This document shows, piece after piece, positions 16,201 to 46,030 of a stretch of DNA of 48,414 nucleotides. Origin of the DNA: Billgrantia endophytica. Lineage in GTDB: Bacteria > Pseudomonadota > Gammaproteobacteria > Pseudomonadales > Halomonadaceae. A program made the translations under genes and the position numbers. The stretch's first letter is position 1. Each line of letters starts with the position of its first letter. The stretch is taken from NCBI RefSeq assembly GCF_002879615.1, contig NZ_PNRF01000006.1:1-48414 (forward strand), read 5' to 3'. The notes below the pieces were generated by a model, which saw nothing but the letters and a program-made list of their open reading frames with translations, was not told the DNA's origin and did not search any database.

Positions 16201-16371
16201 GCTGGCCGAGGCGCCCGGATAGCGGGTGTCGATGCTGACGACCGGCGGGTCGATGGCCGGGTACTCCTGCAACGGAAGGCGTTGCATGGCCAGCAGACCA
16301 AACGCCACGATCAGCAGCGCCAGTACCGTGGCCAGCACCGGGCGCTGAACGGAAAGGTCTGACAGCCGCAT
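13258..16371 (-). CDS. RND-family efflux pump, inner-membrane subunit
   Basis: A protein of 1037 residues, full length for hydrophobe/amphiphile efflux (HAE1-type) RND pumps. Starts MRLSDLSVQRPVLATVLALL. The proton-relay aspartates are present as Asp401-Asp402 in GLIVDDAIVVLENI, and the lysine partner in GLATKNGILIVEFAN. It should export drugs, detergents or solvents using the proton gradient, docked with the adaptor encoded just upstream. Its start overlaps the adaptor stop by one base (TGATG), implying translational coupling. No outer-membrane channel gene is present in this window, so a TolC-like protein must come from elsewhere. Confidence 0.95.
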   Translation of the reverse strand: MRLSDLSVQRPVLATVLALLIVAFGLLAMQRLPLQEYPAIDPPVVSIDTRYPGASASVVETRITQVLEDRIAGVEGIELITSSSEDGRSQINIEFRLDMDIDAAANDVRDRISGALRNLPDEADPPEVQKADSSEEVVLWLSLAGASYTIPELTDYADRYLVDGFSVQPGVARVRVGGGREYAMRVWLDRNALAARNLTVSDVENALRAENVELPAGSIESRERQFVVRLPRSFAEPDDFKRLALNQGSDGYLVRLGDVARVEIGSVEDRSIFRANGTPMVGLGIMKQSTANVLEVSEGVQRELARVQGSLPEGMSLSLNYDASVFVSGAIKEVVITLCVAMGLVVVVIFLFLGNVRTTLIPAVTVPVAMIGAFMALALMGFSINLLTLLALVLAVGLIVDDAIVVLENIHRRMHDYGETPLVAAFRGTRQIAFAVIATTLVLVAVFVPLAFLQGNVGRLFSEFALTMAAAVAISSVLALSLTPMMASKILKPTMHDGHIARGVQWLLELSQRIYRTLLIGVLKARMAVLAVFVALIAATVWLADLLPSEYTPQEDRGSFIILVNGPEGATFDYIMDYMDEIETRLAPMRESGELERVVIRAPRGFGNIEIFNNGFAIISMADWGARRDAWTIMDEVGKELADLPGVQAFTVMRQGFGQRISKPVEFVLGGGTYEELAEWRDLLMNHIRSDNPRLTALDSNYRETQPQLRVDIDYARAADLGVTVTEIGRTLEVMLGGRNVTRYLEGGQEYDVIVEGDRASQSSPRALDNIQVRSARSGELIPMASLVNFSDDAGAGTLNRFNRLRSITIEANLADGYSLGEALEYLEAAAAEVLPGQAQTDVSGASRDYRQASGATIYLLILGALVVFLVLAAQFESFVHPFVIMLTVPLAMSGAMLGLFVTGQSLNIYSQVGLVMLIGLATKNGILIVEFANQLRDEGLAFHDALLNASVTRLRPILMTAVTTMAGAIPLIVSTGAGSESRMVIGTVILAGVAAATLFTLFVVPVAYDLLARHTGSPGAVKRRLEAEMADSTVAQ

Positions 16372-17471
16372 CAGGTATCACCCTCCGAGCGATTGGCTTC
16401 GAGAAGCTCCCGGATCGTGGTGTCATCATCGGTAATGCCAAGCAGCCGGACCTTGTCGCCTTCTTGTGCCCGTTGCAGGCCATGGCTGACCGCCAATTCA
16501 CCGGCTCCCAGCCCTTCCAGTATCTCGACCTGGCCGGTGCGGCGCTCCCCGACGCTTACCTGACGCCGTTCGAGCCGGTTGTCATCGGCCTCATCGATTA
16601 CCATGACGAACTGGCGGTCCCCGCTGGGTACCAGGACGGATTCCGGTACCACGACGGTATCCCGGGGGCTCCGCTGCAGTACGACTTCCATCAGCATGCC
16701 GGGGCGCAGGCGCAGGTCGGGGTTGGCCAGTTCCGCACGCACCATGACGCTGCGGCTGACCGGGTCGACCCGTGACCCGATGCTGGCCACCTCGCCGTCG
16801 AAGGTCTCGTCGGGAAAGGCGACGCTGCGAGCGGCCAACGGCAGCCCCGGTTGGAGTATGGCCAGATAAACCTCGGGTACGCTGAAGTCGAGCTTCATCA
16901 TGTCGAGCTTGTCCAGGGTCACCAGCTCGGTGCCGGGAGTGACCAGGCTTCCCACACTGATGTCGCGAAAACCTACCCGGCCGGCGAAGGGAGCGCGCAG
17001 TTGGTAATTGGTCAATCGTGCCTCGAGCCCCTGGATTTCGGCCTCGACCTGACGCAGTCGTGCCTGGCTGTCTTCCACGTCCGCCCTTGCAGCCAAGTTG
17101 CGATCCTGCAATTGGCTGAGTCGGCTGACGGTGCTGCGCCGTTCGTCACGGGTTGCCTGGGCCGCACGCAGTTGGGCCTGTTCCTCTGCGTCCTGTAGCC
17201 GAATCAATAGCTGGCCGGCTTCCACCATTTCGCCGTCCTGGAAGTTCAATTCGACAACGATGTCGGTAACGGTGGCGGAGAGGGTCACGCTCTCCTCGGC
17301 ATGCAGGGTGCCCAGCGCCTCCAGGGGGTCGGACCAGTATTGAAGCATGGCCCTGGCACCGATCACGGCAGAGCGTTCCTGCGCGGCAACCGGCGCGGAC
17401 AGGCAGAGCATCAGCAGCAGCCACACTGGGTGCAACCGCATGAAAGCACGAAAACGGTTTCTGGTAGTCAT
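16371..17471 (-). CDS. RND efflux periplasmic adaptor subunit (membrane fusion protein)
   Basis: A protein of 366 residues. Signal peptide MTTRNRFRAFMRLHPVWLLL followed by a hydrophobic stretch and cleavage around VAAQE; there is no lipobox cysteine at the cleavage site. The order is lipoyl half (VTDIVVELNFQDGEMVEAGQ), a coiled-coil hairpin (about 100-150, RDERRSTVSRLSQLQDRNLA), the second lipoyl half (LRAPFAGRVGFRDISVGSLV), and then beta-barrel and membrane-proximal domains. The hairpin is short, typical of single-hairpin adaptors. It is the first gene of a two-gene operon with the RND subunit. A 12-base inverted repeat lies 40 bases upstream. Confidence 0.93.
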   Translation of the reverse strand: MTTRNRFRAFMRLHPVWLLLMLCLSAPVAAQERSAVIGARAMLQYWSDPLEALGTLHAEESVTLSATVTDIVVELNFQDGEMVEAGQLLIRLQDAEEQAQLRAAQATRDERRSTVSRLSQLQDRNLAARADVEDSQARLRQVEAEIQGLEARLTNYQLRAPFAGRVGFRDISVGSLVTPGTELVTLDKLDMMKLDFSVPEVYLAILQPGLPLAARSVAFPDETFDGEVASIGSRVDPVSRSVMVRAELANPDLRLRPGMLMEVVLQRSPRDTVVVPESVLVPSGDRQFVMVIDEADDNRLERRQVSVGERRTGQVEILEGLGAGELAVSHGLQRAQEGDKVRLLGITDDDTTIRELLEANRSEGDT

Positions 17472-31226: not shown

Positions 31227-33272
31227 TCACTGCTGCCCAGGGCCTTCGCAGGCCTGAAGGTCGCCAGGGGGGATCCTGTTGGCGCCCCAGCTGCGGTGAA
31301 TATGGCCGATCACCCGATCCACTTCATCCTGGGCGACCCTGGCCAGATCGCCCCGCTCCAAGGGGTCATAGTGGAAGATGTAGAGCCGCGAGGCGAACTC
31401 CTCGAAGGGCAGGGAGGCTTCTCCGAATCGTTCGCCCTGGCCGGCGGTGCTCACCTTGATGCCATCCCCCCAGTCCTGGCCGCTATCATTGTTGGGGTTG
31501 AAGAAATACACCCGCATGACATCCGAAGGGTCCAGCGATACGCGCAGTACCGTAATGGCATGCCAGCCGATGAAGCGCGCGGCGCTATCGGTGATGGCGA
31601 TGCCCGCTGGCTGAGGGTGGATGACGGGCTGATTGCCGTTGTAGTAGGGGTGATAACTGGCATAGAAGTGGCGCAGGAAGTCGTCCAGCTCATGGAGCTG
31701 TCCCGTTGCCACGTCGACATTGATGCGAAATCCCCGGCCGGCCCACCAGCCGTGAAACTCCGGATTCACCCAGCGATGCGGATCGCCGTCGCGACCCGCG
31801 CAGCGACGGCCCATTTCGGCATAGATCCTGTCGAGATGGGGTACCACCAGCAGCGAGACGGGATCGAGATCGATGGGCAGCTCGGTGGCAACGCCCGAGA
31901 GGCTGGCCATGGAAGAAATGGACTGGCCCTCGAAGTGCATCACGATCTCGTCGTCACGGGCCGCCCAGGCCACCATCTGCAGGAGATAGTCCGGATCGTT
32001 GTAGGCCCACATCGACAGGGCGCGAGCCGATTGGCAGGTGGGGTTGTTGCCTTGGCCGACACCCAGTGGCAGGCCGAGCATGCACATGACGCCTTCCAAT
32101 AACCTCGCCCTGGGCGAGACGGCTTCACCGAAGGCCAGGTTGAGCCGTGCCCGGGACCACTCCGACAGCGGCAGCCCCAACTGACGCCACATGGCGGGTG
32201 CCACCGGGGGCTGGTAAAGAATGCCCCGCTCGAGCATCAGGGTGAGACCATAGGCCGCCTGGGGCGTGGTTGGGTGCACGCCGCCACGGATCAGCGCATG
32301 TACCAGTTCCCGATAGCAGAGCAGGCAGTCGCGCCCGGTAGAGGAGAGCCCCAGCCCTTCGGCCAGCAGGTGGTCACCATGATCCAGTAAATGACGCAAC
32401 AGTACCGGATGGTAGGGCGACACCAGGCCGGTATCATGCATGGCACGGGCAAAGCCGGTGGCTTCGCTCTGGAGGGCGGCGCTATCCATGCTCGAGAGTC
32501 GGTCCCGATAGATATCCAGCCCCGGGTCTTCACGACACGCCTGGGTGGGGCCGAACAGGGAGCTGACCAGCCGGTCGGCTCCCTGGCCACTGACGCCCAG
32601 GTCGATTTCCGGGTTGGCCTGGCAGATGGCGATCTGGGTGATCATCTGCTTGACCGGCTCTACCTGGATCGGGCGCTGCTGCAGGATGCGCCAGATCTCC
32701 TCGATCAGCTTGTCGATGATGTGCTCATAGCCGATGCGCTTGGCCAGATGGAGGAACAAGTGGCGCGGTATCTCGGCAAGCCTTCCCTGGGTTTCCCGTT
32801 CGGCTTCGCTGGGGGCACCGAACAGCAACCAGAGGTTGAGCGCCATGACCTGGGTGAGGTAGTGGTGCGCCTGTTCCGCCGAGATCAGCGAATGCTGGTA
32901 GTCGCCCTTGGCAATGGCGAGCAGGCGCAGCTCGCTGAGTGACTCGATGACGACGGTATTGGGATTGGCGCTCTTGAGCGCATGGGTGGTCAACGAGGGC
33001 ACCAGATACTGCGGCGTCTCCCAGTCCGAGCCGTGAAAGATTCCGGCTTCCTCCAGGATTTTGGCGCGCCGCTCCACCTCCGCGGCCCCGCCTTCCTGAT
33101 GCAGCACACGGCGCGCCGTATCCATCACCCGCGGCAGCTTGCCCGGCTTGGCGAAATCACGGGATTCAGCCAGCAGGTCAATGGCTTCGTCGAGTCTCGC
33201 CAGCAGTCCCGCGAGCTTGTCGCTGGGTGCCGGCGGTTCACTCGTGTCTTGCGTGTGTCGGTGCGTCGTCAC
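31227..33272 (-). CDS. Uncharacterised 681-aa protein with putative papain-like catalytic site
   Basis: No named family is recognised. The protein is soluble: no signal peptide and no clear membrane segments. The first half (1-395) is mostly helical. The second half holds what may be a papain-type active site: Gln407 six residues before Cys413 in GQGNNPTCQSARALSMWA, His571 in IGWHAITVLRV, and Asn592 in YFFNPNNDSGQDWG. The order Q-C-H-N and the six-residue Q-to-C gap equal those of papain. This is my reading and needs a structure check. It is the second gene of an operon, 45 bases after an ATP-grasp ligase gene, suggesting the pair makes and processes an amide bond. Start ATG 33272 chosen as the only good one. 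Confidence 0.75.
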   Translation of the reverse strand: MTTHRHTQDTSEPPAPSDKLAGLLARLDEAIDLLAESRDFAKPGKLPRVMDTARRVLHQEGGAAEVERRAKILEEAGIFHGSDWETPQYLVPSLTTHALKSANPNTVVIESLSELRLLAIAKGDYQHSLISAEQAHHYLTQVMALNLWLLFGAPSEAERETQGRLAEIPRHLFLHLAKRIGYEHIIDKLIEEIWRILQQRPIQVEPVKQMITQIAICQANPEIDLGVSGQGADRLVSSLFGPTQACREDPGLDIYRDRLSSMDSAALQSEATGFARAMHDTGLVSPYHPVLLRHLLDHGDHLLAEGLGLSSTGRDCLLCYRELVHALIRGGVHPTTPQAAYGLTLMLERGILYQPPVAPAMWRQLGLPLSEWSRARLNLAFGEAVSPRARLLEGVMCMLGLPLGVGQGNNPTCQSARALSMWAYNDPDYLLQMVAWAARDDEIVMHFEGQSISSMASLSGVATELPIDLDPVSLLVVPHLDRIYAEMGRRCAGRDGDPHRWVNPEFHGWWAGRGFRINVDVATGQLHELDDFLRHFYASYHPYYNGNQPVIHPQPAGIAITDSAARFIGWHAITVLRVSLDPSDVMRVYFFNPNNDSGQDWGDGIKVSTAGQGERFGEASLPFEEFASRLYIFHYDPLERGDLARVAQDEVDRVIGHIHRSWGANRIPPGDLQACEGPGQQ

Positions 33273-33317
33273 GCCGACTCCTTGTCGTCAGGCTGTCATT
33301 CGCCCATGACGCCTTGC

Positions 33318-34541
33318 CTAGACATAGAAATCAAGTTCTTCCTGATGCTTCAGCAGGTCGCGCAGGATATGGGGGTCCTCGCCCTTGAAGTAGATCAGGC
33401 CCCAGTGAGTACCGAAGGCGGTGCGCTTGGTCACCGTCTCCGCCATGGGAGGGGTCAGCTCGTGGGACTCGAAGTAAGGGTGGTCCTCGACCTCCTCGGG
33501 GATCTCCAGGCGGCTGACGACCCGGCGGCGGGGGTAAACGCCGAAACAACCGGCATAGCACGTGGCATCGACCACTTCCCGTGGGAAGAACGCCTCGACC
33601 TCTTCGGGTTTGGTCTTGGGGTCGAAGACCATCATGCTGGCCTGATAGGCATTGAAGCCGTAGACCCGTTCGAGCAGTTCGAACACCTTGAAACCCGGCG
33701 GGCGGTAGGCCACCTCGCCAAAGTACATTTCACCATCGCTGGTCACGAAGTACTCGGGGTGGATCAGCCCGAACTCGATGTCGAAGGTCTTGATCAGTTT
33801 TTCGATCTGGGCCGTGATCTGGGGTCGGTAGCGCTCGATCTCGGGGGAGCCCGGCACGAAGACCGAATAGCCCAGTGTCACGTACTCGGAAATGTTGAGA
33901 AACGCGACCTTGCCGTTATGGACCCAGGCCTCTACGGCGAATTCCCACCCGTCCAGGTGCGACTCCATCAGCACGGGAAATTCTTCGTCGGGGATGGAGT
34001 CGACTTCATCGGGGGTACGGATCACCCGGTGGCCCAGGCAGCCGGCCTTGTCGAAGGCCTTGAGATGGATCGGGTCGTTGGGGTCGCCGTCGAGCTTCAG
34101 CAGGGTCTGGTTGACCCGCTTGAGGAAGCGGATGACATCGGCCTTGTCATGGGCTTCCTCGAAGATGCCCACGCGGATGCCGCCAAGCTGGGCTCGGCGC
34201 TTCATCAGGGCCTTGTCGCGCAGCAATAGCGACTGGCCGTAGAGGCGGGGGTTGTCGAGCAGCAGCGAGTTGATGGCGCCGGCCCACTCCACGGTTTCCT
34301 CGAACATCGGAATCGCCACGTCGACGCCCATTTCCTTGAGGGTCTCGGCGATTTCCATGGATCGGTCGTTGAGCCGCTCGAAGTTCCAGGAAACGTAGGG
34401 GATGTCATGCTGCTGGCAATACTTTTCCGCCCAATCCGGTGCTACCACCACGTAGCGTCGATCAAAGTTTTCGGCGGCTTCGACAGCGTTCAGGCTCCAG
34501 CCGAGCAAAGCGATATAGCCCTTGTTGGGGTCCTTTTTCAT
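33318..34541 (-). CDS. ATP-grasp domain carboxylate-amine ligase-like protein
   Basis: A protein of 407 residues, cytosolic. N-terminal Rossmann-like pre-ATP-grasp domain (KGYIALLGWSLNAVEAAENF). ATP-binding region around HLKAFDKAGCLGHRVIRT, then ESHLDGWEFAVEAWVHNGKV. The metal-binding end is EFGLIHPEYFVTSDGEMYFG followed by EVAYRPPGF, where the usual Asn of 'ExN' is replaced by Ala. ATP-grasp ligases activate a carboxylate as acyl phosphate and join it to an amine or thiol. It is the first gene of a two-gene operon with the 681-residue protein. Substrates are not deducible. Good start with AGGAGGCGCACC-like leader upstream. Confidence 0.88.
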   Translation of the reverse strand: MKKDPNKGYIALLGWSLNAVEAAENFDRRYVVVAPDWAEKYCQQHDIPYVSWNFERLNDRSMEIAETLKEMGVDVAIPMFEETVEWAGAINSLLLDNPRLYGQSLLLRDKALMKRRAQLGGIRVGIFEEAHDKADVIRFLKRVNQTLLKLDGDPNDPIHLKAFDKAGCLGHRVIRTPDEVDSIPDEEFPVLMESHLDGWEFAVEAWVHNGKVAFLNISEYVTLGYSVFVPGSPEIERYRPQITAQIEKLIKTFDIEFGLIHPEYFVTSDGEMYFGEVAYRPPGFKVFELLERVYGFNAYQASMMVFDPKTKPEEVEAFFPREVVDATCYAGCFGVYPRRRVVSRLEIPEEVEDHPYFESHELTPPMAETVTKRTAFGTHWGLIYFKGEDPHILRDLLKHQEELDFYV

Positions 34542-34754: not shown

Positions 34755-34864
34755 GGTGGCCCCGTCGGTCCTCCCGCAACGCTAAACCGCAAACCCCGCC
34801 AGGCCCGGAAGGGAGCAACGGTAGTGGTGGTCGCGTGTGCCGGGATGTGGCTGTCGGGGCCGCC
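34755..34864 (+). ncRNA. ffs: 4.5S RNA (signal recognition particle RNA)
   Basis: The ends GGTGGCCCCG and CGGGGCCGCC pair to close one long hairpin. The conserved SRP domain IV is present: CAGGCCCGGAAGGGAGCAAC carries the GGAA tetraloop and the symmetric and asymmetric internal loops that bind Ffh. GGTCCTCCCGCAACGCTA and GCGTGTGCCGGGATGTGGC match the E. coli molecule almost exactly. Length about 110 nucleotides, as expected. It works with Ffh and FtsY in co-translational membrane targeting and is essential. A decayed IS4 element starts about 60 bases downstream. Confidence 0.95.
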
Positions 34865-34922: not shown

Positions 34923-36108
34923 TCCGCGCCAAAACGCCTGCAAGCGTTGCTCGACGTGGTGGGCGTGCTGTTGAGCGAGCGCCGTCTTGGTGTGACGGCC
35001 TTGGGGCGTGCCTTGCCGGTATCAGCGACACCCAAGCATATCATCAAACGGGTTGATCGGTTTCTGACTAACCATCATCTACATTAGGGACGGGCACTTG
35101 TCTTATTGGCTCGTGGCGTCGCTGCTGATCGGCCACACTACCCGTCACTGATTCTGGTGGACTGGTGACCCGATCGATGACCCTGGCCAGCGATTCTTGT
35201 TGCGAGCCATTGTCGGGTGCTCACTACCGATTTTCGAAAAGGTCAACCATAAGAATGGTTGCCAGCGCTGTGAAGCGTACTTGCTCGCGGCCTTGGCCGA
35301 GCGAGTCCTGCCTGCCGATTCAACGCCGATCCTCATCACCGATGCGGGCTTTCGCGACCCTTGGTTCAAGGCGGTCGAGGCGCGTGGTTGGTACTACATG
35401 AACCGGGTTCGCAGCCCCACTAGGTGCCTGGCTCCGCGTGGCGGCCTGTGACAGCCTTGTTCAACAAGCAACCTCGGCAAGCACCGGGTTCCGTTCATAT
35501 CTCTGAGAACAACCCGCTGAGATTGCCCTACCCGCATGGTGCTCTAGCATCGGCCGCCGAAGGGATGTCAACATCGCAATAAGCAAGGCCAAGTCTCTTA
35601 AGACGGCTGCAGTCGGGCGATTGCCCAGCGCCAGAAGGAACCCTGGGTGCTGGTCAGCAACTTGTGGGAGCGCTCAACGCTGGCGGACAAGCTGATGGCT
35701 ATTTACCGGCAGCGCATGCAGATTGAAGAAGTCTTTCTTCATATCAAAAACACCTTGTTTGGACTGGGCTTCGGCATGTACCAGTCTTGCCAGGGCAAAC
35801 GCATCGAAATCCTGCTGCTGACCGCGATGCTGGCCAGTGTCATCGTGATGGTCGCCAGCCTGCATGTCCGTGAGTGCGGTCAACAGTGGTGCTACCAGAG
35901 CAACAGTATCCGGCACCGGGACGAGCTCTCCGTGTGGCGGTTGAGCCCGGAATGGTTACGGCGCCATCTTGTTCGGTGCTGCCCCTTAGCTCTCCTGAAA
36001 AAACGCTTCAAGCAAGCCTTGCTAGGCCTGGAGAGCGCCGGTGGTGAGTGGCGACTGGTCGCTATGGCATGGAACATCAAGCGGATGCACCGTCTGGTGA
36101 CAGGCTGA
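34923..36108 (+). pseudogene. IS4-family transposase, decayed by stops and frameshifts
   Basis: Pieces of one transposase appear in several frames. The N-terminal part reads LQALLDVVGVLLSERRLGVT, TPKHIIKRVDRFLTNHHL, then a stop at 35085. It continues ARGVAADRPHYPSLILVDW (first catalytic Asp) to a stop at 35166. The second Asp is in ILITDAGFRDPWFKAVEARG near 35335. The IS4 YREK signature is intact in YRQRMQIEEVFLHIK near 35700-35750. The last piece (35647-36108) ends KRMHRLVTG. Total span of about 1.2 kb is full length, so the element was whole before it decayed. I could not identify the terminal inverted repeats with confidence. Confidence 0.88.
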
Positions 36109-36428
36109 AGGGGCCCCCTGAGAGGGCTTTCTTACAGGCGATCAGGCCCCCAGTAGTGCTTCGAGAGTGGCTGATGGCGCTTCGTGACCTGAGCTGTGGG
36201 CGCCAACAGAAAGGGGCGTCGTTACCATGAGAGACGCCCATCACCCGACAGCTTGCTAGGGCTTATCAGCATGCGCCGATTAGATCGGCATCATAGTCGA
36301 CATTATGGGCAACGAACTTGTTGACAAAATCGGCGATGTCACTGACTATTTGAAATGTGGGGTGCGTGAAGCCCAATCAGGCAGATCACCTCTGAGCTCA
36401 CAAATAAATACAATTGGAGTGTAAGTTA
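36109..36428. other. Intergenic region between the IS4 remnant and the TAXI-TRAP operon
   Basis: No gene is supported here. It contains a palindrome GCCGAT-TAG-ATCGGC at 36275-36289. A weak promoter candidate follows: TTGACA at 36321-36326, 17 bases, then GACTAT at 36344-36349, which would drive the TAXI-TRAP operon. The first 130 bases probably include the right end of the IS4 element. Confidence 0.5.
36321..36349 (+). promoter_or_regulatory. Candidate promoter of the TAXI-TRAP operon
   Basis: A perfect -35 box TTGACA is followed at 17 bases by GACTAT, a poor -10 match. The weak -10 would fit a promoter that needs an activator. It is 80 bases upstream of the first gene. Confidence 0.35.
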
Positions 36429-37388
36429 ATGAAAAAATTAGTAACTGTCACCGCATCTGCGATCCTCGCTACATCCTTGTGCACCACCGCGCAAGCATCC
36501 CAGGATGTCACCATTGGTGCAGCATCCGTTGGCGGCACTTTTTATGTTTGGGCAAGTGGTATGGCAAGCGTCCTGAACAAGATTGGTATGAACACCAATG
36601 TGGAGGTAACTGGGGGACCGTTGCACAATATTCAGCTCGTCCATGGCGGTGAGCTGGAACTTGGCCTAGTGACGGCGGCGCCTGCCTATGAAGGTTTGCT
36701 CGGCATCGAGTGGGCGGATGGACAAAAATACGATAATATTCGCGCCGTGCTGCCTATGTATCCTAGCTACTTCACTTGGTGGTCAGTGAAGGACTCTGAC
36801 ATCAAAACCTTTGAGGACCTTGAGGGCAAAGTAGTGGCTATGGGACCGGCCGGTGGCACGCCGGATGCTTACGGTCGAAAGGTTTACGATCATACAGGCA
36901 TCCAGCCGTCCCAGATCGTTAATGCGGGTTTCTCGGACATCGTTAATCAGTTGCGTGATGGCCAGGTAGATGCCGCTCTCACCACTGCGGGTCTACCTCA
37001 TCCGGCAGTCGCCGAGACCGAATCCACCCATGGTATAAACCTGATCACCCTGCCGAAGGAAATCAGTCAATCCTTCATTGGGGAATACCCCTACTTTGGT
37101 ACCGATGTGGTTCCTGCGGGCACCTATGACGCCGTGACAGAAGACCAGCCGACACTCACCGTGTGGAACTTTTTAATCACGAACAAGGAACAGTCCGATG
37201 ATTTAGTTTATGAGATGGTCAAGGCAGCTTTCGAACACCACGATACCCTGATGGAGACCCACCGGGCCTCAGAGCATGTCATTCTGGAGAATATTGCTGA
37301 AATAACGGTTCCTCTACATCCGGGTGCCATCCGGTACTACGAAGAGCAAGGTGTTGATATCCCCGACCGACTCATTCCAGAGGACTGA
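36429..37388 (+). CDS. TRAP transporter TAXI-family substrate-binding protein
   Basis: A protein of 319 residues from ATG 36429, with GGAGTG at 36416-36421; an upstream TTG is not needed. Signal peptide MKKLVTVTASAILATSLCTT, cleavage near AQASQD. Mature part has the TAXI motif TIGAASVGGTFYVWASGMAS, then VTGGPLHNIQLVHGGELELG. TAXI receptors deliver organic acids such as glutamate- or oxoglutarate-like compounds to a fused TRAP permease. The permease follows at 37493. GC content is below that of the backbone genes. It is the first gene of the catabolic island. Confidence 0.92.
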   Translation: MKKLVTVTASAILATSLCTTAQASQDVTIGAASVGGTFYVWASGMASVLNKIGMNTNVEVTGGPLHNIQLVHGGELELGLVTAAPAYEGLLGIEWADGQKYDNIRAVLPMYPSYFTWWSVKDSDIKTFEDLEGKVVAMGPAGGTPDAYGRKVYDHTGIQPSQIVNAGFSDIVNQLRDGQVDAALTTAGLPHPAVAETESTHGINLITLPKEISQSFIGEYPYFGTDVVPAGTYDAVTEDQPTLTVWNFLITNKEQSDDLVYEMVKAAFEHHDTLMETHRASEHVILENIAEITVPLHPGAIRYYEEQGVDIPDRLIPED

Positions 37389-37492
37389 TCTACAAGCTCT
37401 ACAGGTTTGAGCGATGCCATGAGGCCCGCAGCGCCGAGCGTGGTGTCCTTGTCTATACAAAGTCAATAAAATAAATGTAAGTCGAGGTTATC

Positions 37493-39364
37493 ATGTCATT
37501 CCTGCGTGACAGCACCGGATGGTCCCTGCGGGCACTAATTGCCATTACTGCCTTGGCGATTCTAGGCTTCCATTTTTACGCCTTAATCATTCAGCCGCTG
37601 GATCCGCTGATTTTCCGTGTTTGGCATATCACGGGTCTTGTGGTCTTTGGTTCGCTGGTCAGTCTGACTATGGATAGTCCTTGGCTGCGTTATACCGCTC
37701 CGGCTCTAGCACTTGCAGTACTGAGTGGTGCAATTTACATGACAATGGATATGCAAGGCATCGCCATGCGGGCGGGTGTACTCCCATCGGATACGGATGT
37801 GATAATTGCCGTACTGATGGTGGGTGCGGTTCTAGAGGTTACACGTCGTACCACTGGCAACGCTATTTTTATCCTTGCTGTCCTGGCGATTCTATATGGG
37901 CTTTATGGTAATTATCTTCCAAACTTTGTTGGTCATCGCGGCTACAGTTTTGAGAGGTTGGTGACTTATCTATACACTACAAATGGTTTGTTAAATATTC
38001 CACTGGGATCCTCTGCGACCTATATATACCTTTTTGTCCTCTTTGGTTCACTGATGATGGCCTCTGGAGCCGGTGAATACCTGATCAAGTTAGCGATTGC
38101 GATGTCCGGGCGAGCGCGAGGCGGTCCTGCCAAGGTGGCGATTACAGCCAGTGGCTTCTTTGGCATGATCAACGGCACCTCGGCTGGCAACGTGGTGGCC
38201 ACGGGTTCGATGACGATTCCCATGATGAAACGGGCTGGCTATACGCCCACGGTCGCCGCTTCTGTCGAAGCCACATCATCAAGCGGCGGGCAGATCCTTC
38301 CGCCTGTCATGGGCGCTGCCGCTTTCCTGATGGTCGACATGACCGGGATGTCTTATACCAGTATTATCATGGCGGCCACGATTCCTGCGGTGCTCTATTT
38401 TCTTTCCGTGTTTATGATGTCGCACTATGAGGCAGTTAATCGCGGCATCGGCGGCGTATCGAATGAAGAGCAGCGTCTGGATAAAAAGTCTTTGCTTACG
38501 GGGCTGTATTTCTTGCTTCCACCGCTGGTATTAATTTTCTCCCTACTGGTGCTTAACGTTTCAATTATTCTCTCCGGCTTGTATGCAGTCGCAGCTACCT
38601 TGCTTGTGAGCTGGATCCGCAAGGTGACGCGTATCGGTCCGAAAGTCGCCACTAAGGCCAGCATCGATGCTGCAAGTAGTATTCTACCAATTGCCGCGAC
38701 CTGTGCGACAGCCGGGATTATCATGGGGGTACTTAATCTCACTGGCATGGGCCTGAAATTGGCAATGGTGATCATCACAATCACTGGTGGTAGCCTGTTC
38801 CTGACGCTGCTCCTGGCGATGGTAGTCACAATTGTCCTGGGTATGGGGTTGCCGACGGTGGCCGCCTACGCGATCACCGGGGCAGTGGTGGCGCCCGCAC
38901 TCACGCGCTTAGGCGTCGAACCGATGGCGGCACACCTTTTCGTGCTCTACTTTGCCTCCATGTCGGCCATCACACCGCCAGTTTCACTGGCTAGTTTCGC
39001 TGCGGCAGCTGTGGCGAGGGCACCGGTCTGGCCAGTGGCCATGACCGCACTCAAGCTGGGCACTGCCGGGTTCATCGTTCCATACTTATTCGTCTACCGT
39101 CCAGAGATCCTGATGGCTGGGAGCTTTGGCAGCATCGTCTTTGAAACAGTGATTGCCGTGATTGCGATTATTAGTCTGGCAGCCGCACTTCAGCTGCGTA
39201 CTGATACTTGGTGGCCAAGGGTTGCCTGGTTTGCCGGCGCCATTTTGCTACTGACACCAGATCTGCTGCTCACAGCTGTGGGATTGGCCATTGCTGGGCT
39301 CGCAACTGCTTGGGAGCTTCATCATCGCCGACAGCATCCAGTGGCTGGTCGAGCGGCTAGGTGA
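37493..39364 (+). CDS. TRAP transporter fused permease (DctQ-DctM), TAXI type
   Basis: A protein of 623 residues, the usual size for TAXI-linked fused permeases. The first four helices (about 1-110) are the DctQ-like part, and the rest is the DctM part with more than ten helices. The family signature GFFGMINGTSAGNVVATGSM and VEATSSSGGQILPPVMGAAA is present near residues 220-285. A matching second half is GLPTVAAYAITGAVVAPALT and MSAITPPVSLASFAAAAVAR. It uses a Na+ gradient to import the acid captured by the upstream receptor. Spacing of 104 bases to the receptor gene fits one operon. Confidence 0.93.
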   Translation: MSFLRDSTGWSLRALIAITALAILGFHFYALIIQPLDPLIFRVWHITGLVVFGSLVSLTMDSPWLRYTAPALALAVLSGAIYMTMDMQGIAMRAGVLPSDTDVIIAVLMVGAVLEVTRRTTGNAIFILAVLAILYGLYGNYLPNFVGHRGYSFERLVTYLYTTNGLLNIPLGSSATYIYLFVLFGSLMMASGAGEYLIKLAIAMSGRARGGPAKVAITASGFFGMINGTSAGNVVATGSMTIPMMKRAGYTPTVAASVEATSSSGGQILPPVMGAAAFLMVDMTGMSYTSIIMAATIPAVLYFLSVFMMSHYEAVNRGIGGVSNEEQRLDKKSLLTGLYFLLPPLVLIFSLLVLNVSIILSGLYAVAATLLVSWIRKVTRIGPKVATKASIDAASSILPIAATCATAGIIMGVLNLTGMGLKLAMVIITITGGSLFLTLLLAMVVTIVLGMGLPTVAAYAITGAVVAPALTRLGVEPMAAHLFVLYFASMSAITPPVSLASFAAAAVARAPVWPVAMTALKLGTAGFIVPYLFVYRPEILMAGSFGSIVFETVIAVIAIISLAAALQLRTDTWWPRVAWFAGAILLLTPDLLLTAVGLAIAGLATAWELHHRRQHPVAGRAAR

Positions 39365-39416
39365 TGAAAAGCAACGGGAAGAAATCTATCATTGACGAGC
39401 CAGCTAGAGGTATGTA

Positions 39417-40217
39417 ATGAACAGCACGTTCCTTGAATACTCCACGATCAACGTGGAGCGACGTGATAACGGCGTTGCAATCCTGACCCTTAACCGCCCT
39501 GATGCACTCCATGCCTTGAATAGCGTGATGGCCAATGAGCTGATTCGACAGTTCAGCGATTGGGCAGTGGATACCCGCCTGCGCTGTATCGTGATCACGG
39601 CCAGTGGACTCCGGGCTTTTTGCGTGGGTGCCGATCTCAAGGAGCGTAATTGCCTGGACGAAGATGGTATCCGACGTCAGCATGCGCTTTTCAGGTTGTT
39701 CCTGATGATTCGACTGAGCTTGGACATTCCGGTGATAGCTGCAGTTCAGGGGGTGGCGCTCGGAGGCGGCGCGGAAATAGCGCTAGCCTCTGATATCGTG
39801 CTTGCTACTGAGGAAGCAGAGTTTGGGCTGCCGGAAATCGGCCTTGGCATTATGCCGGGACTGGGTGGAACTCAGCTCCTCCCTCGAATTACCGGACGTG
39901 GCAGGGCACTGGAGATGCTGCTGACTGGCGAGCGGATCAATGCGGAAGAGGCTCAGGAGTACGGTATCGTTTCCCGGATTTTTCCTCAGAAAGAGATGCT
40001 CAGCCGAGCCTTGGAAAAGGCTGAGCAGGTTGCTAGGATGCCGCCGCTGGCGGTTCGCTCGATACGCCGGGCTGTGCATATCGGTGGCGAGCTCGACCTC
40101 AATAGTGGGCTCGCCTACGAACTTGCTTTGCATCAACGACTGATGGCCAGCGAGGACCGGACGGAGGGGGTGCGCGCCTTCATCGAAAAACGTACTCCCA
40201 CATGGCGTGGTCGATAA
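39417..40217 (+). CDS. Enoyl-CoA hydratase/isomerase family protein
   Basis: A protein of 266 residues, full crotonase length. Oxyanion-hole residues occur in RAFCVGADLKERN and VALGGGAEIALASDIVLA, and the catalytic glutamate region is FGLPEIGLGIMPGLGGTQLL. The family covers CoA-thioester hydration, isomerisation and C-C bond cleavage. It lies 52 bases after the TRAP permease on the same strand, so it is probably co-transcribed. No CoA ligase or thiolase is in the island, so the CoA step must be supplied from elsewhere. Confidence 0.9.
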   Translation: MNSTFLEYSTINVERRDNGVAILTLNRPDALHALNSVMANELIRQFSDWAVDTRLRCIVITASGLRAFCVGADLKERNCLDEDGIRRQHALFRLFLMIRLSLDIPVIAAVQGVALGGGAEIALASDIVLATEEAEFGLPEIGLGIMPGLGGTQLLPRITGRGRALEMLLTGERINAEEAQEYGIVSRIFPQKEMLSRALEKAEQVARMPPLAVRSIRRAVHIGGELDLNSGLAYELALHQRLMASEDRTEGVRAFIEKRTPTWRGR

Positions 40218-40241
40218 CGTGCGGTGGATATAGTATACGAT

Positions 40242-40937
40242 CTACATGACGAAATCTTGGTAGCGCACTAGCCATTCCTTGGCGCTGCGGATGATTCGTT
40301 TTTTCATATCCTCAGCTGCAGCAGCTTCACCCGCCCGCATGTGCTTGAGCATTTCCAAATGCATCTCGCGTCCGATGGCTGCGCGCCCGTTCAATAGCGT
40401 GACTCTGCGCTTGATAAGTCTAGCTTTGTCATAAACCAGATCCAGGAAATTGGTGGCATGCGTGTTGTCTGCCCAACAAATGATCTCACGGCGGAGTTCT
40501 TCCAAGGCATCGATGTAACGCTCTATCTCGCCGTCGGAAATAGCCTTTTCCATCACCGAGCCGAAGAGTTCGATATAGAAGTCCCACGTCTCGGGGGGAG
40601 CGTTGATCGTTGCCTGGTGAGTGCACATGCCCTCCAAGACCTCTCGAACATCGAATATTTCATAGACCTCCTTGGGATCGAGCCTAGCTACGACTGCCCC
40701 CCGGTTGTGGATGCGGTTGACAAGTCCGCGCTGTTCGAGAATCCCAAAGGCTTCCCTAACAACAGACCTGGATGTGCTGAACTGGTGAGCGAGTTCGAGT
40801 TCGTGGAGGCGTGTGCCGGGGGGGAGATCATGTTCTGCGATCATATATCGCAATTCTAGAAGCACTTCTTCGGTACGTTGCTTCTGGCCGCGCCGTTTTT
40901 CCTTACCTGTCTTTTCCTGTGTGATACCGACTTTCAT
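40242..40937 (-). CDS. GntR-family regulator with FCD domain (first of two)
   Basis: A protein of 231 residues. Winged helix: DLPPGTRLHELELAHQFSTS, SVVREAFGILEQRGLVNRIH and NRGAVVARLD. FCD effector domain: EVYEIFDVREVLEGMCTHQA onwards, with histidines in REMHLEMLKHMRAG of the kind that hold a metal in this class. It is convergent with the enoyl-CoA hydratase (24 bases between stops) and divergent from the ThDP gene. It resembles the second regulator at 46136 in domain order and wording (REVLEG, NRGAVV). It probably represses one or both operons until an organic acid binds. Confidence 0.9.
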   Translation of the reverse strand: MKVGITQEKTGKEKRRGQKQRTEEVLLELRYMIAEHDLPPGTRLHELELAHQFSTSRSVVREAFGILEQRGLVNRIHNRGAVVARLDPKEVYEIFDVREVLEGMCTHQATINAPPETWDFYIELFGSVMEKAISDGEIERYIDALEELRREIICWADNTHATNFLDLVYDKARLIKRRVTLLNGRAAIGREMHLEMLKHMRAGEAAAAEDMKKRIIRSAKEWLVRYQDFVM

Positions 40938-41074
40938 AACTTACATGCTCTTAACATTCGGTTGATTGTCTTGGAAATCGTGGGGGATCGCACAAGTTCT
41001 GCAGTTAAACGTCTACCCACGTCCGGGGGCGCGCTGCAAGGCTTCGGAACGCGTCAGCCCCCTGCTGTTTGTTA

Positions 41075-41095
41075 CCCCCCACATACTGGGGGTTT
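41075..41095. other. C/G hairpin in the regulator-ThDP intergenic region
   Basis: CCCCC, seven spacer bases, then GGGGG and TTT lie about 140 bases upstream of the GntR start and 315 bases before the ThDP gene. The interval 40938-41410 has no gene that I can support. The hairpin resembles a weak terminator or leader structure on the plus strand. Confidence 0.35.
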
Positions 41096-41279
41096 CACCA
41101 TAAAACCAGAATGGACGGATCAGTTCCACTGTATACCATACCCGTTTGATGACAATTATGTCTACGAAAAAAAGAAAATCTAGGGATCTTACGGATTGGA
41201 GTGCCGATGCCTACGAGGAGTGAGCCACGAAACGTAAGAATTCGCTCATGATGTGACAACACATAGATAGACAAGAATG

Positions 41280-41295
41280 TTGACAAAAGTGTCAA
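41280..41295. promoter_or_regulatory. Palindrome upstream of the ThDP gene, candidate GntR operator
   Basis: TTGACAAAAGTGTCAA has two six-base arms, TTGACA and TGTCAA, around four bases. It lies 115 bases before the ThDP gene and overlaps a possible -35 hexamer (TTGACA). A repressor bound here would block the operon that follows. FCD-type regulators bind short palindromes of this sort, and one is encoded just upstream. Confidence 0.5.
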
Positions 41296-41410
41296 TGGTC
41301 CGGTACTTTCAGGATTCTTGGGGAGGCTGGGGGCTCAGCGGATAATTTTCGCCGTCACGGACTAGGGTGATCAAGACGGCGCCAATCCTGATGAGGAAAG
41401 GAGCAAGGAA

Positions 41411-43099
41411 ATGACAAGAATGAGTGGTGGACGAGCGGCAGTCGAAGCGCTGCGAGCAAATGGAGTTGATACGGTGTTCGGACTGATTGGTTCGGCCACT
41501 ATGGAAATGTTCGATGCTCTGTATGATGCTGAGGAGATTCGCTTCATCGGGGTTCGAGATGAACGCTCTGGTACTCACATGGCGGATGGCTATGCACGCG
41601 CCAGCGGTAAAGCTGGGGTCTTCTTAGCCGGACAGAATGGCCCGGGCGCCACTAACCTCGTTACGCCCTTAGCCCAGGCTCGGGCGGCTTACTCCCCCGT
41701 TATCGCACTAGCGGGTTCGCTGGCCACCGGTCATGTCCATCGAGATGCCTTCCAGGAGGTGGACCAACAGCACCTGTTTATGCCTATCACCAAGAAGACC
41801 TACATGGTCAATAGTGCCGGTCGGGTTCCTGAATTCATCAATGAAGGTTTCCGCAATGCTCTGTCGCCCCGCCAGGGTCCGGTACTCCTCAACTTGCCTC
41901 GCGATGTACTGGCCGCCGAAGCCGAGTTCGAAGCTATCCGGGGTGCGATGGGAGATGGCATGCACACTGCTGTGCGGGCCAATCCGGAGCAAGTCAAGAA
42001 GGCGGCGAAACTCCTGATTGGCGCCAGTCGCCCGCTGATCATTGCGGGTGGAGGAATCAAGAACAGTAGGGCTCACGAGGTGGTCATCGAACTAGCCGAG
42101 TCTCTAGGCGTACCGGTGGCGACATCACCTGGGCATGGTGATGGGATGCCGTTCGACCATCCCCTGAATGCCGGTCAAGTGGGCCCGCGGGGCAACGACG
42201 TGGCCTCGTATCTGGCTCGTGAGGCGGATGTCATTCTCGCACTGGGTACGCGACTTGGCTTCAATTCAACCTTCTATACCTATGACAATCTCAATCAAAA
42301 GGCCGCCATTATTCAAGTGGAGATTGAGCCTACCGCGCTTGGGCGCTTTTTCCCCGTGGAAGTGGCTATCTGGGGCGATGCTTCGTCGGTAGTGCAGGAT
42401 ATTCGTGAGGCGATCCGGGGTAGTGAGCGCGACGGTGGCGCCTGGGTTGCTCAGTTCAAGGAACAACGCAAGCGTCACCTGGTGGCGCTGGATGAGACCA
42501 ATGACGAGCAGTCACCAATCAGTCCGGAGACGCTGTTCAAGGCCCTACGTGAGGTGGCTCCTCGAGACACTATGTATACCATGGATGCCGGGACACTGTG
42601 CCTGCAGGCCACCGACAGGCTGGCCTATTGGCAGCCGCCGGCACTGTTCACGCCGCTAGACTTCGGGTTAGTCGGCTTCTCCTTCTCTTGCGGCCTTGGT
42701 GTCAAGCTGGCTTGCCCAGAACGCACGGTCATTAGCCTGATGGGGGATGGAGGATTTGGCATGACCGTCTCTGAGCTCTCCACGGCAGTCGAACATGGTA
42801 TCAATACCGTCACGGTGGTAATGAATAACCAGTGCTGGGGAGCCGAGAAGGCTTATCAGCGCGACTTCTTCGGAGAGCGTTACATTGGAGCGAACCTGCA
42901 GAATCCACCCTATGACAAGCTTGCCGAACTCTATGGCGCCCGTGGATTCAGGGTAGACCAGCCGGGTGACCTGAGAAAGACCCTGGAGGCGGCCTTGGCT
43001 TGTGGCAAACCTGCTGTAGTTGATGTTCAGGTAGACCCGGCTGCCCTCTACAGCTTCCGTCGTGACTCTTTCAAGCATCGGGCAGGAGACAAGGCATGA
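41411..43099 (+). CDS. ThDP-dependent enzyme, acetolactate synthase superfamily (Xsc-like)
   Basis: A protein of 562 residues, with AGGAGCAAGGAA before the ATG. The ThDP-activating glutamate is Glu51 in RDERSGTHMADGYARASG. The cofactor motif runs from Gly445-Asp446-Gly447 in LMGDGGFGMTVSE to Asn472-Asn473 in VMNNQCWGAEK. Segments FGLIGSATM, FQEVDQQHLF, WGAEK and FRRDSFKH resemble sulfoacetaldehyde acetyltransferase (Xsc). Overall it is clearly different, so a decarboxylase, lyase or ligase on another 2-oxo acid or aldehyde is possible. The next gene overlaps by four bases (ATGA). Moderate confidence in function, high in superfamily. Confidence 0.9.
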   Translation: MTRMSGGRAAVEALRANGVDTVFGLIGSATMEMFDALYDAEEIRFIGVRDERSGTHMADGYARASGKAGVFLAGQNGPGATNLVTPLAQARAAYSPVIALAGSLATGHVHRDAFQEVDQQHLFMPITKKTYMVNSAGRVPEFINEGFRNALSPRQGPVLLNLPRDVLAAEAEFEAIRGAMGDGMHTAVRANPEQVKKAAKLLIGASRPLIIAGGGIKNSRAHEVVIELAESLGVPVATSPGHGDGMPFDHPLNAGQVGPRGNDVASYLAREADVILALGTRLGFNSTFYTYDNLNQKAAIIQVEIEPTALGRFFPVEVAIWGDASSVVQDIREAIRGSERDGGAWVAQFKEQRKRHLVALDETNDEQSPISPETLFKALREVAPRDTMYTMDAGTLCLQATDRLAYWQPPALFTPLDFGLVGFSFSCGLGVKLACPERTVISLMGDGGFGMTVSELSTAVEHGINTVTVVMNNQCWGAEKAYQRDFFGERYIGANLQNPPYDKLAELYGARGFRVDQPGDLRKTLEAALACGKPAVVDVQVDPAALYSFRRDSFKHRAGDKA

Positions 43100-44748
43100 C
43101 GGGTGTCAGGAGCAGCGAAGAGACTTTCGATTACATCGTGATTGGCGCCGGGTCGGCAGGCTGTGCCCTAGCTGGAAGACTATCGGAGGATCACAAGCAC
43201 TCGGTGCTCCTGCTGGAGGCCGGTGGTTGGCCGAACAATCCGTGGATTCGAGTACCGCTGGGCGTCGGTAAGCTACTGCAGAATCCGAAATATGCCTGGC
43301 CGTTTCATACAGCCCCCGAGCCTGCCTTGAATGACAAGTCCATCTATTGGCCCCGGGGCAAGGTAGTCGGTGGTTCCAGTGCCATCAATGGGATGGTCTA
43401 TGTGCGCGGCGATCCTATCGAATATGACGAGTGGCAACGCTTGGGCAACGAGGGGTGGAGCTACCGGGATGTGGCAGCCTACTTCAAGCGCATGGAGTGC
43501 TACCCAGAAGGAGACCCTGCGCTGCGCGGCCATGATGGGCCGATGCATGTTATCAACCGTGGCAGTTGGGATCCCGATCCCCTATCCACTGCTTTCCAGG
43601 ATGCCTGTGCCGAAGCTGGTGTGCCGCGTGCGGAAGACTACAATAATGGTACCTTCGAGGGTGTCAGCTACCTTCAGCAGACAGGGTATCGCGGCCGTCG
43701 CTGGAGTGCGGCGGATGGCTATATCATGGGTGCTCGCAGCCGCGCCAATCTCACCGTCAGGACTCATGCCCTGACTGCGAAGGTCCTCTTTGAAGGCAAG
43801 CGTGCCGTGGGGGTCGAATATCTCAAGGATGACAAGCGCTACCAGGTTCGCGCCCAAGGTGAGGTTCTGCTCTGTGCGGGGGCGATTCAGTCCTCTCAGC
43901 TCCTGGAGCGCTCTGGGGTGGGCGACGAGAATCGCCTCGCCAAGCTAGGGGTGCCGGTGGTTGCCCATCTCCCCGGGGTTGGTGAGGGCCTGCAAGACCA
44001 CCTCCAGGTTCGCTTAACCTACGAATGCACTCAGCCGCTGACGATCAACGACATTATTGGCAGCAAATGGCGCGGCATGCAGCACGGGCTTAATTACATT
44101 TTGAGGCGGCGGGGCCTGATGAGTACAACCTCGTCGACGGTGCACGCTATTGCCAAGACCCACCCAGAACTGGAGCGCCCGGACGTCAAGATCCAATTGG
44201 CGCTGATCAGTGGCCAAGACCGCTACTCGCGCAGTAAAGAGATGGGGATTGACAGGTTTTCGGGCTTTTCCCTGGGGGCATTCATGCTTCGACCACTATC
44301 GCGCGGATCCGTTCACGCCACCAGCGCTGATCCACAGTGCCCGCCCAGCATGGTCGCCAACTATCTCTCACACGAAGAGGAGCGCCGGACCTATCTTGAT
44401 GCCCTCAAGTTTATCCGCGAGATAGCTTCGCAGCCAGCACTCAGCAAACTGCTACGTCGAGAGATCCGCCCGGGTCCCGAGGTTACCGATGAAGAGGAGC
44501 TGATGGACTACATGCGCAAGACTGGGCAAACCTCTTGGCACCCCATCGGAAGCTGTCGGATGGGCAACGATGACCTGTCTGTGGTGGACAGCGAGCTGCG
44601 AGTGCATGGCGTCGAGTGTCTAAGGGTGGTCGATGCTTCCATTATGCCCACCATGGCATCGTCAAATACCAACGCACCGGCCATCATGATTGGTGAGAAG
44701 GGCGCGGATCTGGTACGTGGCATCAAGGGAGTTAATAATTATGGTTGA
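43096..44748 (+). CDS. GMC-family alcohol dehydrogenase/oxidoreductase
   Basis: A protein of 550 residues, full length for choline-dehydrogenase-like GMC flavoenzymes. FAD motif DYIVIGAGSAGCALAGRLSE. GMC signatures: GKVVGGSSAINGMVYVRGD, then QSSQLLERSGVGDENRLAKL. The catalytic His482 is in TSWHPIGSCRMG, and the partner is Asn526 in SNTNAPAIM. It should oxidise a primary alcohol to an aldehyde using FAD and a membrane or soluble electron acceptor. It overlaps the ThDP gene by four bases and the dehydrogenase gene by eight, so the three are translationally coupled and likely act on successive intermediates. Confidence 0.93.
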   Translation: MTGVRSSEETFDYIVIGAGSAGCALAGRLSEDHKHSVLLLEAGGWPNNPWIRVPLGVGKLLQNPKYAWPFHTAPEPALNDKSIYWPRGKVVGGSSAINGMVYVRGDPIEYDEWQRLGNEGWSYRDVAAYFKRMECYPEGDPALRGHDGPMHVINRGSWDPDPLSTAFQDACAEAGVPRAEDYNNGTFEGVSYLQQTGYRGRRWSAADGYIMGARSRANLTVRTHALTAKVLFEGKRAVGVEYLKDDKRYQVRAQGEVLLCAGAIQSSQLLERSGVGDENRLAKLGVPVVAHLPGVGEGLQDHLQVRLTYECTQPLTINDIIGSKWRGMQHGLNYILRRRGLMSTTSSTVHAIAKTHPELERPDVKIQLALISGQDRYSRSKEMGIDRFSGFSLGAFMLRPLSRGSVHATSADPQCPPSMVANYLSHEEERRTYLDALKFIREIASQPALSKLLRREIRPGPEVTDEEELMDYMRKTGQTSWHPIGSCRMGNDDLSVVDSELRVHGVECLRVVDASIMPTMASSNTNAPAIMIGEKGADLVRGIKGVNNYG

Positions 44749-46030
44749 AGTGGGCAGTGTCGGCATAATAGGTACTGGCCAGATTGGCTCGCGTATGGCC
44801 AGACGGCTTCTTCGGGCCGGTTACAGGGTGGTCACTCATGACATCGACACAAAGGCCATGGAAGGAATTGCCGGCGCAATAAAAGTAGAGTCGGCAGCGG
44901 ATGTAGCCCGTGACTGTGATCTGGTAATCACCTGTGTCACCGATCACCATGCTGTGCGTGACGTGGTAATGGGGCCAGGGGGAATTCTTGAAGTCGTTCG
45001 GCCGCATCACCTTGTGATTGAGACTACCACCTCCACTCCGGTGATCACTAGGGAAGTTGCCGCAGCCTTGCGTGAACATGGCGCAGACTTGGTGGATGCC
45101 CCGGTGAGCCGTGGTGTTCCTGCAGCAGAAAACGGCACCCTGTCAATCATGCTGGGTGGGTATGCAGCTTCCCGAGAACGGGCGCGGCCGGTGCTCGATC
45201 AGTTGGGTACCGACATCATCCTCACCGGCGAAGTTGGCACTGGTCACATCGCTAAGGCGATGAACATGATGGTGATGGCAGTCAATTTCACTGCCACCAT
45301 GGAGTTCATGCATATGGCACATTCCCTTGGCATCCCGAGGGAGGAGTCTATCGCCCATTTCGCGGCAGGGCCTGGCAGGACTTTTCTGCTGGAACACCAC
45401 TGGCCTCGCTATATTCTCCCAGCAACATACAACTCGGGGTTTACCCTGGGTCTAATGTGGAAGGATCTGCGAATCGCAAGCGAAATTGCCGTAGACAGTG
45501 GCCAAGTGCCTTTATTGGGGGAGCGGGTGACCTCACTGTATCGTTGGGCGGCCATTACCGGGATGGCTGAGGCGGACAATACACGGCTGGTTGAGTTTAC
45601 CGATCAGGCCCGTGGGTCACCGTCCTCGGTGCGTCCAAGAGTGCCATCTAAGGATGTGCTCAAGCGACTCGACCAGGCCCTTTTCGCAGCTGTCCATCTA
45701 GGTACACTTGAGGCCCTTGCAGTGTCCAGAGCCGCAGGACTGGAGCCTGAACAACTGCTTGCAGTACTCAATGTAAGCAGTGGTGGTAGTGCAGTTAGCA
45801 ATGGAGAGCATGGAGGTTATGAGAACCTAGAGCTACTCTACGCTAATACCAAGCAGGTTGGCTTGATAGCAGCAGAGAACGGAGATTTCTGCTTCCTTAC
45901 GAGCCTGGTCCTTCAGATTCTAGCAATGGAGTTGCGTGAGTTGCCCCGCATCGCCACGGATGAAGTCATCATAGACTTTATGCAGCGGAGGATGGGAAGG
46001 GGTGCTGGCGGCCAGGGTTCCGGCTCTTGA
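44741..46030 (+). CDS. Beta-hydroxyacid dehydrogenase with duplicated C-terminal domain
   Basis: A protein of 429 residues from ATG 44741; upstream starts lie inside the GMC gene. The N-terminal NAD(P)-binding domain has VGIIGTGQIGSRMARRLLRA and the substrate motif DAPVSRGVPAAENGTLSIML. The catalytic lysine is in GTGHIAKAMNMMVMAV. The family is normally about 300 residues. Here a second helical unit (about 305-425, LDQALFAAVHLGTLEALAVS, GLEPEQLLAVLNVSSGGSAV) resembles the C-terminal domain again, so the protein looks like a fusion. It probably oxidises a 3-hydroxy acid or reduces a semialdehyde from this pathway. Confidence 0.88.
   Translation: MVEVGSVGIIGTGQIGSRMARRLLRAGYRVVTHDIDTKAMEGIAGAIKVESAADVARDCDLVITCVTDHHAVRDVVMGPGGILEVVRPHHLVIETTTSTPVITREVAAALREHGADLVDAPVSRGVPAAENGTLSIMLGGYAASRERARPVLDQLGTDIILTGEVGTGHIAKAMNMMVMAVNFTATMEFMHMAHSLGIPREESIAHFAAGPGRTFLLEHHWPRYILPATYNSGFTLGLMWKDLRIASEIAVDSGQVPLLGERVTSLYRWAAITGMAEADNTRLVEFTDQARGSPSSVRPRVPSKDVLKRLDQALFAAVHLGTLEALAVSRAAGLEPEQLLAVLNVSSGGSAVSNGEHGGYENLELLYANTKQVGLIAAENGDFCFLTSLVLQILAMELRELPRIATDEVIIDFMQRRMGRGAGGQGSGS

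Follow-up and report, generated by a model that had tools for sequence, protein, structure and literature searches.

An ATP-grasp ligase gene and a gene for a predicted papain-like protein of an uncatalogued family form a conserved pair

Systems in which a ligase is matched with a partner of the papain superfamily are a known theme. Glutathionylspermidine synthetase/amidase carries opposed activities on one amide, and tubulin tyrosine ligase belongs to the ATP-grasp enzymes. According to the parts of PMC10318531 that deal with these systems, the E. coli glutathionylspermidine enzyme also combines a ligase with a papain-superfamily (CHAP) domain, vasohibin, which opposes tubulin tyrosine ligase on a eukaryotic protein substrate, is a papain-like enzyme (triad Cys-His-Ser), and BtrH, from butirosin synthesis, has a papain-like fold that serves acyl transfer, its substrate being an aminoglycoside and its partner an acyl carrier protein. 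PMC2922099 mentions a papain-like family described as new, as well as other operons with ATP-grasp genes.

Here we analyse a gene pair encoded by the minus strand of a 48,414-nucleotide stretch of DNA from Billgrantia endophytica (contig NZ_PNRF01000006.1), hereafter the window. The ligase gene comes first and is followed, after 45 bases, by the gene for a larger protein that we call PAP. This layout had been proposed from the letters alone and was recovered in full, with both reading frames located on the same strand at lengths of 407 and 681 residues. Whereas glutathionylspermidine synthetase/amidase is one polypeptide, ligase and PAP are two, and PAP has no CHAP match in Pfam. PAP's predicted fold resembles that of BtrH, but no butirosin-like cluster was seen at the pair. 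No description of the pair was recognised in a literature search whose scope left most subscription journals outside. The features of the pair are as follows:

33318..34541, minus strand: gene 1, ATP-grasp carboxylate-amine ligase of the L-amino-acid-ligase type, 407 aa
33708..33716, minus strand: E276-x-A278 of the ligase, Ala replacing the usual metal-binding Asn
33273..33317, minus strand: intergenic gap, 45 bases
31227..33272, minus strand: gene 2, PAP, two-domain protein of 681 aa, GTG start
32163..33230, minus strand: N-terminal helical domain of PAP, about residues 15-370
31365..32153, minus strand: predicted papain-like domain of PAP, about residues 374-636
32052..32054, minus strand: Gln407, predicted oxyanion-hole residue
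32034..32036, minus strand: Cys413, predicted nucleophile, starting helix 413-425
31560..31562, minus strand: His571, predicted general base, within strand 567-580
31497..31499, minus strand: Asn592, predicted third triad residue, in NPNNDSGQDWG, just after strand 586-591

The gap varies from about 21 to 282 bases in the 13 tandem loci compared, as measured partly from alignment ends. A promoter scan found none, and the number of terminators was about that expected by chance.

The product of the first gene had been taken for an ATP-grasp ligase, an identity that the fold matches support: it models as an L-amino-acid ligase, with a predicted ATP-grasp fold of that subgroup, and the nearest proteins, the dipeptide ligases BacD/YwfE, RizA and BL00235, are also the closest known systems. 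Its PF13535 score is 25.6 bits against a cut-off of 27, and this family is precomputed for some, and not for others, of the 120 ligase relatives listed. An Asn is the usual metal-binding residue at one position of ATP-grasp enzymes. Its replacement, which the sequence-only reading had singled out, is real, as E276-x-A278 is invariant in 47 of 47 aligned ligases, but it is not the mark of an unusual ligase, because these columns read E-x-G in BL00235 (3vot), an L-amino-acid ligase of solved structure.

PAP is less well conserved (38-88% identity to the window's protein, against 74-93% for the ligase), and the claim that it belongs to no known family stood: Pfam and NCBIfam at E<=1, and PADLOC, returned 0 matches, the catalogued peptidase families C1, C2, C39, CHAP and transglutaminase included for Pfam and NCBIfam. 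Six of seven PAP relatives tested likewise lacked any Pfam family at E<=1, and the seventh gave DUF2891 only, at E 0.15. Sequence searches of the PDB, with PAP itself and with a PAP profile, found nothing significant. The nearest named relatives are Halomonas proteins, at most 88% identical, that carry the names hypothetical or uncharacterized. A database search in which 7,995 candidates were scored gave at least 2,612 relatives at E<=1e-3, and a second search, with a distant member as query, gave 567, including records named Myxococcota and Thermoanaerobaculia. Judged by these searches, PAP is a real, large and uncatalogued family, thousands strong and unnamed in all three collections, with an invariant set of putative catalytic residues. 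Anti-phage defence was considered and rejected: both window proteins and two PAP relatives had no PADLOC match, and Pfam at E<=1 gave no support for the name 'Zorya protein ZorC EH domain-containing' that UniRef attaches to two relatives (P0085 and P0129).

What PAP may be is suggested by its predicted structure, a confident model (pLDDT 90.5) in which a papain-like domain (residues 374-636) lies behind the helical one. A fold search with the model placed calpain cores nearest, followed by staphopain, cathepsin B and Der p 1; transglutaminase and CHAP folds were absent among the 50 matches listed. Calpain (C2) is thus the best fold match, yet it has no sequence match. PAP differs from these papain-superfamily cores in having no family sequence match and in its additional large helical N-terminal domain, about 355 residues that, in the predicted model, weakly resemble ARM/HEAT-type binding proteins. 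A papain-like set Gln-Cys-His-Asn had been read from the sequence, and model and fold search agree with it: Cys413 stands at a helix start, His571 in a strand and Asn592 just past the following strand, which fits the papain-like arrangement.

The four residues were found where they had been placed (Cys413 in GQGNNPTC, His571 in GWHAITVL, Asn592 in YFFNPNNDSGQDWG). In an alignment of 413 rows, which are related and not independent (236 database proteins, 176 locus copies and the reference; locus matches of more than 600 residues only, six locus rows with an internal stop being dropped), Gln407, Cys413 and His571 are identical in 413 rows each and Asn592 in 412, the exception being an Asp. Variation at Cys413 or His571, which would have told against a catalytic role, is therefore absent from these rows. 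Among the eight Cys of the reference, Cys413 alone is invariant, the next best being kept in 67%, and Asn594, Gln599 and Trp601 of NPNNDSGQDWG are as fixed as the triad set. By sequence, then, the family has the conserved Gln, Cys, His and Asn/Asp in the order of papain-like (clan CA) enzymes.

Are the two genes functionally coupled, as had been suggested from their proximity? Among 274 genomes drawn from the class, eight carry PAP and the same eight carry the ligase, a ninth genome (G096), whose PAP match covers 41 residues at E 7.6e-4, having been set aside; among 299 drawn from the phylum, again eight carry PAP and the same eight the ligase. Since one genome (G000) is in both draws, this makes 15 distinct genomes, from 10 families, and the search for a conserved pairing thus found both genes in 15 of 15 and neither gene alone. 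A near-full-length ligase gene lies within 300 bases of PAP on the same strand in 71 of 80 loci (the best 80 of 585 named). One further locus (L071) is cut by a contig end, and in the remaining eight the ligase gene is elsewhere in the genome, three of them retaining ligase remnants at the old place. Halomonas elongata strain 153B is among the bacteria with the pair (locus L065). In a set of 188 distinct PAP copies, chosen partly to follow paralogues and thus not a random sample, 118 are in tandem with the ligase gene, 12 convergent and 5 divergent, and for 53 no ligase is present within the 1.5 kb of flanking DNA examined. This variety of gene order argues for functional coupling, which is supported also by co-occurrence and adjacency. 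PAP thus appears to be bound to one conserved ligase.

The genomes that carry the pair have a further feature in common. Halomonas, like the other genera mentioned in this text, inhabits salt water, and an ectoine synthase (EctC) scores above the Pfam cut-off in all 15 (8/8 in each draw), so that in both draws the pair is confined to EctC-bearing genomes. EctC is found overall in 39 of 274 and 39 of 299 genomes (Fisher 9e-8 and 4e-8, phylogeny ignored), which leaves 31 EctC genomes per draw without the pair. One of the EctC genomes, G272, from the window's own family, has neither PAP nor ligase and speaks against a tight link. Two families of pair genomes (f5 and f150) also have class-draw members, G002 and G148, for which neither PAP nor the ligase nor EctC is listed. 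Halophily could account for the whole pattern. Physical linkage to EctC is a minority arrangement, seen in 2 of 147 distinct ligase copies, with some 110 bases between EctC and the ligase in both cases: in G260 (locus L228), PAP, a histone-deacetylase (HDAC)-family gene, the ligase and EctC follow one another in that order on one strand, and a ligase copy of Halomonas salicampi (L287) faces a lone EctC in convergent orientation. By a rough estimate, well under one such case would be expected by chance, although two cases are thin. In the window's genome the pair stands outside ectABC, with EctC on contig C26 and the two genes on C12. Taken together, genome context points weakly towards osmoadaptation in bacteria that carry ectoine synthase.

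The HDAC-family gene overlaps or abuts PAP in 4 of 188 PAP copies, again a minority arrangement, in four genome families and with varied layouts: it abuts or overlaps PAP in L228, overlaps by 4 bases in L272, is separated by 6 bases in L179, and is convergent with a 4-base overlap in L177. All four neighbours tested have PF00850, and the L228 protein has HDAC6 (E 1e-99) and HDAH (E 2e-59) as nearest solved relatives; the third gene thus matches the class II HDAC-like amidohydrolases, but adjoins PAP in some lineages only. In loci of at least 9 kb, relatives of at least 42% identity occurred three times near PAP and once far from it, over 0.89 and 1.48 Mb, and eight weaker relatives (32-38%) were divided four and four, numbers too few to be proof alone.

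Clustering of all neighbouring ORFs, with crude gene calls, led no further, since antisense shadow ORFs and the synteny of Halomonas genomes dominated the result. ABC-transporter genes occur within 10 kb in many loci, mostly as shared synteny. FabH-like and GCS2-like genes lie near some Marinobacter PAP copies (L162, L166, L168 and L216) and were given little weight. A link to polyamine transport was rejected: in Marinobacter genus g226, a ligase-less PAP copy stands by PotFGHI genes (L165, L170, L208, L210, L211 and L213), a neighbourhood to which we gave little weight because it is limited to one lineage and absent beside the copies of L209, L212 and L214.

Our preferred reading, to which we assign a probability of about 0.45, is that the ligase and PAP act on the same amide, one forming it and the other cutting or transferring it, in a small-molecule pathway of osmoadapting bacteria. 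The ligase would join an amino-acid carboxylate to an amine at the expense of ATP, and PAP would either cut the resulting amide or, by way of a thioester at Cys413, hand on its acyl part; in some lineages, the HDAC-family deacylase is probably a third enzyme. The pathway would most likely belong to bacteria that produce ectoine, and its likeliest substrate would be an amine or amino acid of ectoine/diaminobutyrate or polyamine type. The genes, their conservation, their co-occurrence and their neighbours are observations, and the folds and catalytic residues are predictions; the shared substrate, the direction of the reaction, the chemistry of the substrate and a response to salt are what we infer. 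Should the coupling be as we read it, salt adaptation would be expected to involve a new amide metabolite. The pair might also bear on solitary ectoine synthases, whose role is called unresolved in part of PMC5924519. A more specific version, which we consider quite unlikely, is a new osmolyte pathway in which the ligase would join an amino acid to diaminobutyrate or its N-acetyl form, giving halophiles a compatible solute or storage amide of peptide-like nature, PAP and, in some lineages, the HDAC-type deacylase would release it, and the solitary EctC would close its product into a ring; if true, solitary EctC proteins would gain their missing pathway.

The sequence-only reading had named peptide tagging, peptide natural product synthesis and cofactor modification as candidate roles. 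Could the amide be made on a protein? Such reversible tagging, in which the ligase would attach an amino acid to a protein from which PAP, docked through its helical domain, would remove it, finds a parallel in the tubulin system with its ATP-grasp ligase. The domain's weak ARM/HEAT-type resemblance and the L228 HDAC neighbour, nearest in the PDB to the protein deacetylase HDAC6, are consistent with it, as is the treatment of vasohibin as a papain-like enzyme in part of PMC10318531. However, our ligase is nearest to dipeptide ligases of free amino acids and the two genomes with EctC beside the ligase point to small molecules, so that we favour a small-molecule product and hold tagging to be rather unlikely. 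We judge equally unlikely a biosynthetic acyl transfer, whereby the ligase would load a carrier or a small thiol with an amino acid, which PAP would then move to an acceptor, much as the papain-like acyltransferase BtrH does (PMC10318531, in part). One donor serving several acceptors would fit the excess of PAP over ligase genes in 5 of 20 distinct genomes (G334, with 5 against 2, G435, G171, G558 and G565; G569, a repeat of G334, is omitted), and the FabH-like and GCS2-like genes of Marinobacter would also fit; the numbers are nevertheless equal in 13 genomes and reversed in two (G314 and G567), and on inspection no carrier-protein gene was noticed beside the pair.

A reading of PAP as an ordinary protease of the cytoplasm and of the ligase as a general dipeptide ligase, neighbours with no common substrate, would agree with PAP's predicted papain-like fold and with the copies that have no ligase gene nearby, but is quite improbable given that both genes occur in the same 15 genomes, neither alone, and that three differing gene orders are kept. 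Graspetide-type clusters can pair an ATP-grasp enzyme with a papain-like peptidase, and the ABC-transporter genes could be read in the same way, mostly shared synteny though they are. The maturation of a ribosomal peptide with PAP as leader peptidase is still very improbable, and a RiPP/graspetide cluster was rejected, as no precursor peptide gene was found beside the ligase and no short ORF is widely shared in the 700 bases upstream and downstream in 13 loci. This search, run without composition correction, gave upstream of the ligase two strong pairs (L087 with L292, and L070 with the window, the latter overlapping the SRP RNA) and two weak matches (E 5e-4 and 9e-4); the many weak matches downstream of PAP were read as compositional noise.

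Among viral contigs, one stretch matched a pattern and none encodes a ligase relative. In plasmid sequences, PAP is found in one record, a 1.83-Mb Halomonas replicon that also carries the ligase at 90% identity; 24 other records match the ligase at less than 60%, and those listed are other ATP-grasp enzymes or unnamed proteins.

At L054, L061 and L069, three loci from other genomes, the main-locus gene for the ATP-grasp ligase is present only as fragments, the gene for the predicted papain-fold protein (PAP) is intact, and a further ligase copy is found elsewhere. Among the ligase copies that stand apart from PAP, those of L287 and L288 have a gene for the omega-aminotransferase AptA nearby, and one in genome G314 lies about 2.6 kb from a transporter gene:

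L290, 2522-4144, minus strand: BCCT-family transporter gene

The putrescine-type transporter genes PotFGHI occur upstream of a PAP paralogue that has no ligase, either adjoining it or about 1 kb off, at six Marinobacter loci (L165, L170, L208, L210, L211 and L213). A different PAP paralogue has a 636-aa FabH-like gene close by at L162, L166, L168 and L216, and a GCS2-like gene is also close to it at three of these four loci.

In the window itself, an SRP RNA lies about 220 bases past the ligase start, on the strand opposite to the ligase, and is followed by two separate ORF pieces:

34763-34859, plus strand: bacterial small SRP RNA (RF00169, 74 bits)
35197-36108, plus strand: ORF pieces of 84 and 153 aa

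Judged by eye, these pieces resemble parts of a broken transposase; Pfam gives no match for the one of 153 aa. The window also holds two gene groups, and the one listed first resembles a catabolic cluster:

36414-46030: genes for a TRAP-type transporter (NMT1_3, DctM), an enoyl-CoA hydratase and a regulator of the GntR/FCD type, followed by those for a thiamine-diphosphate enzyme, a GMC oxidoreductase and a protein like 3-hydroxyisobutyrate dehydrogenase
13258-17471, minus strand: genes for an RND efflux pump (ACR_tran) and for the membrane-fusion protein that goes with it
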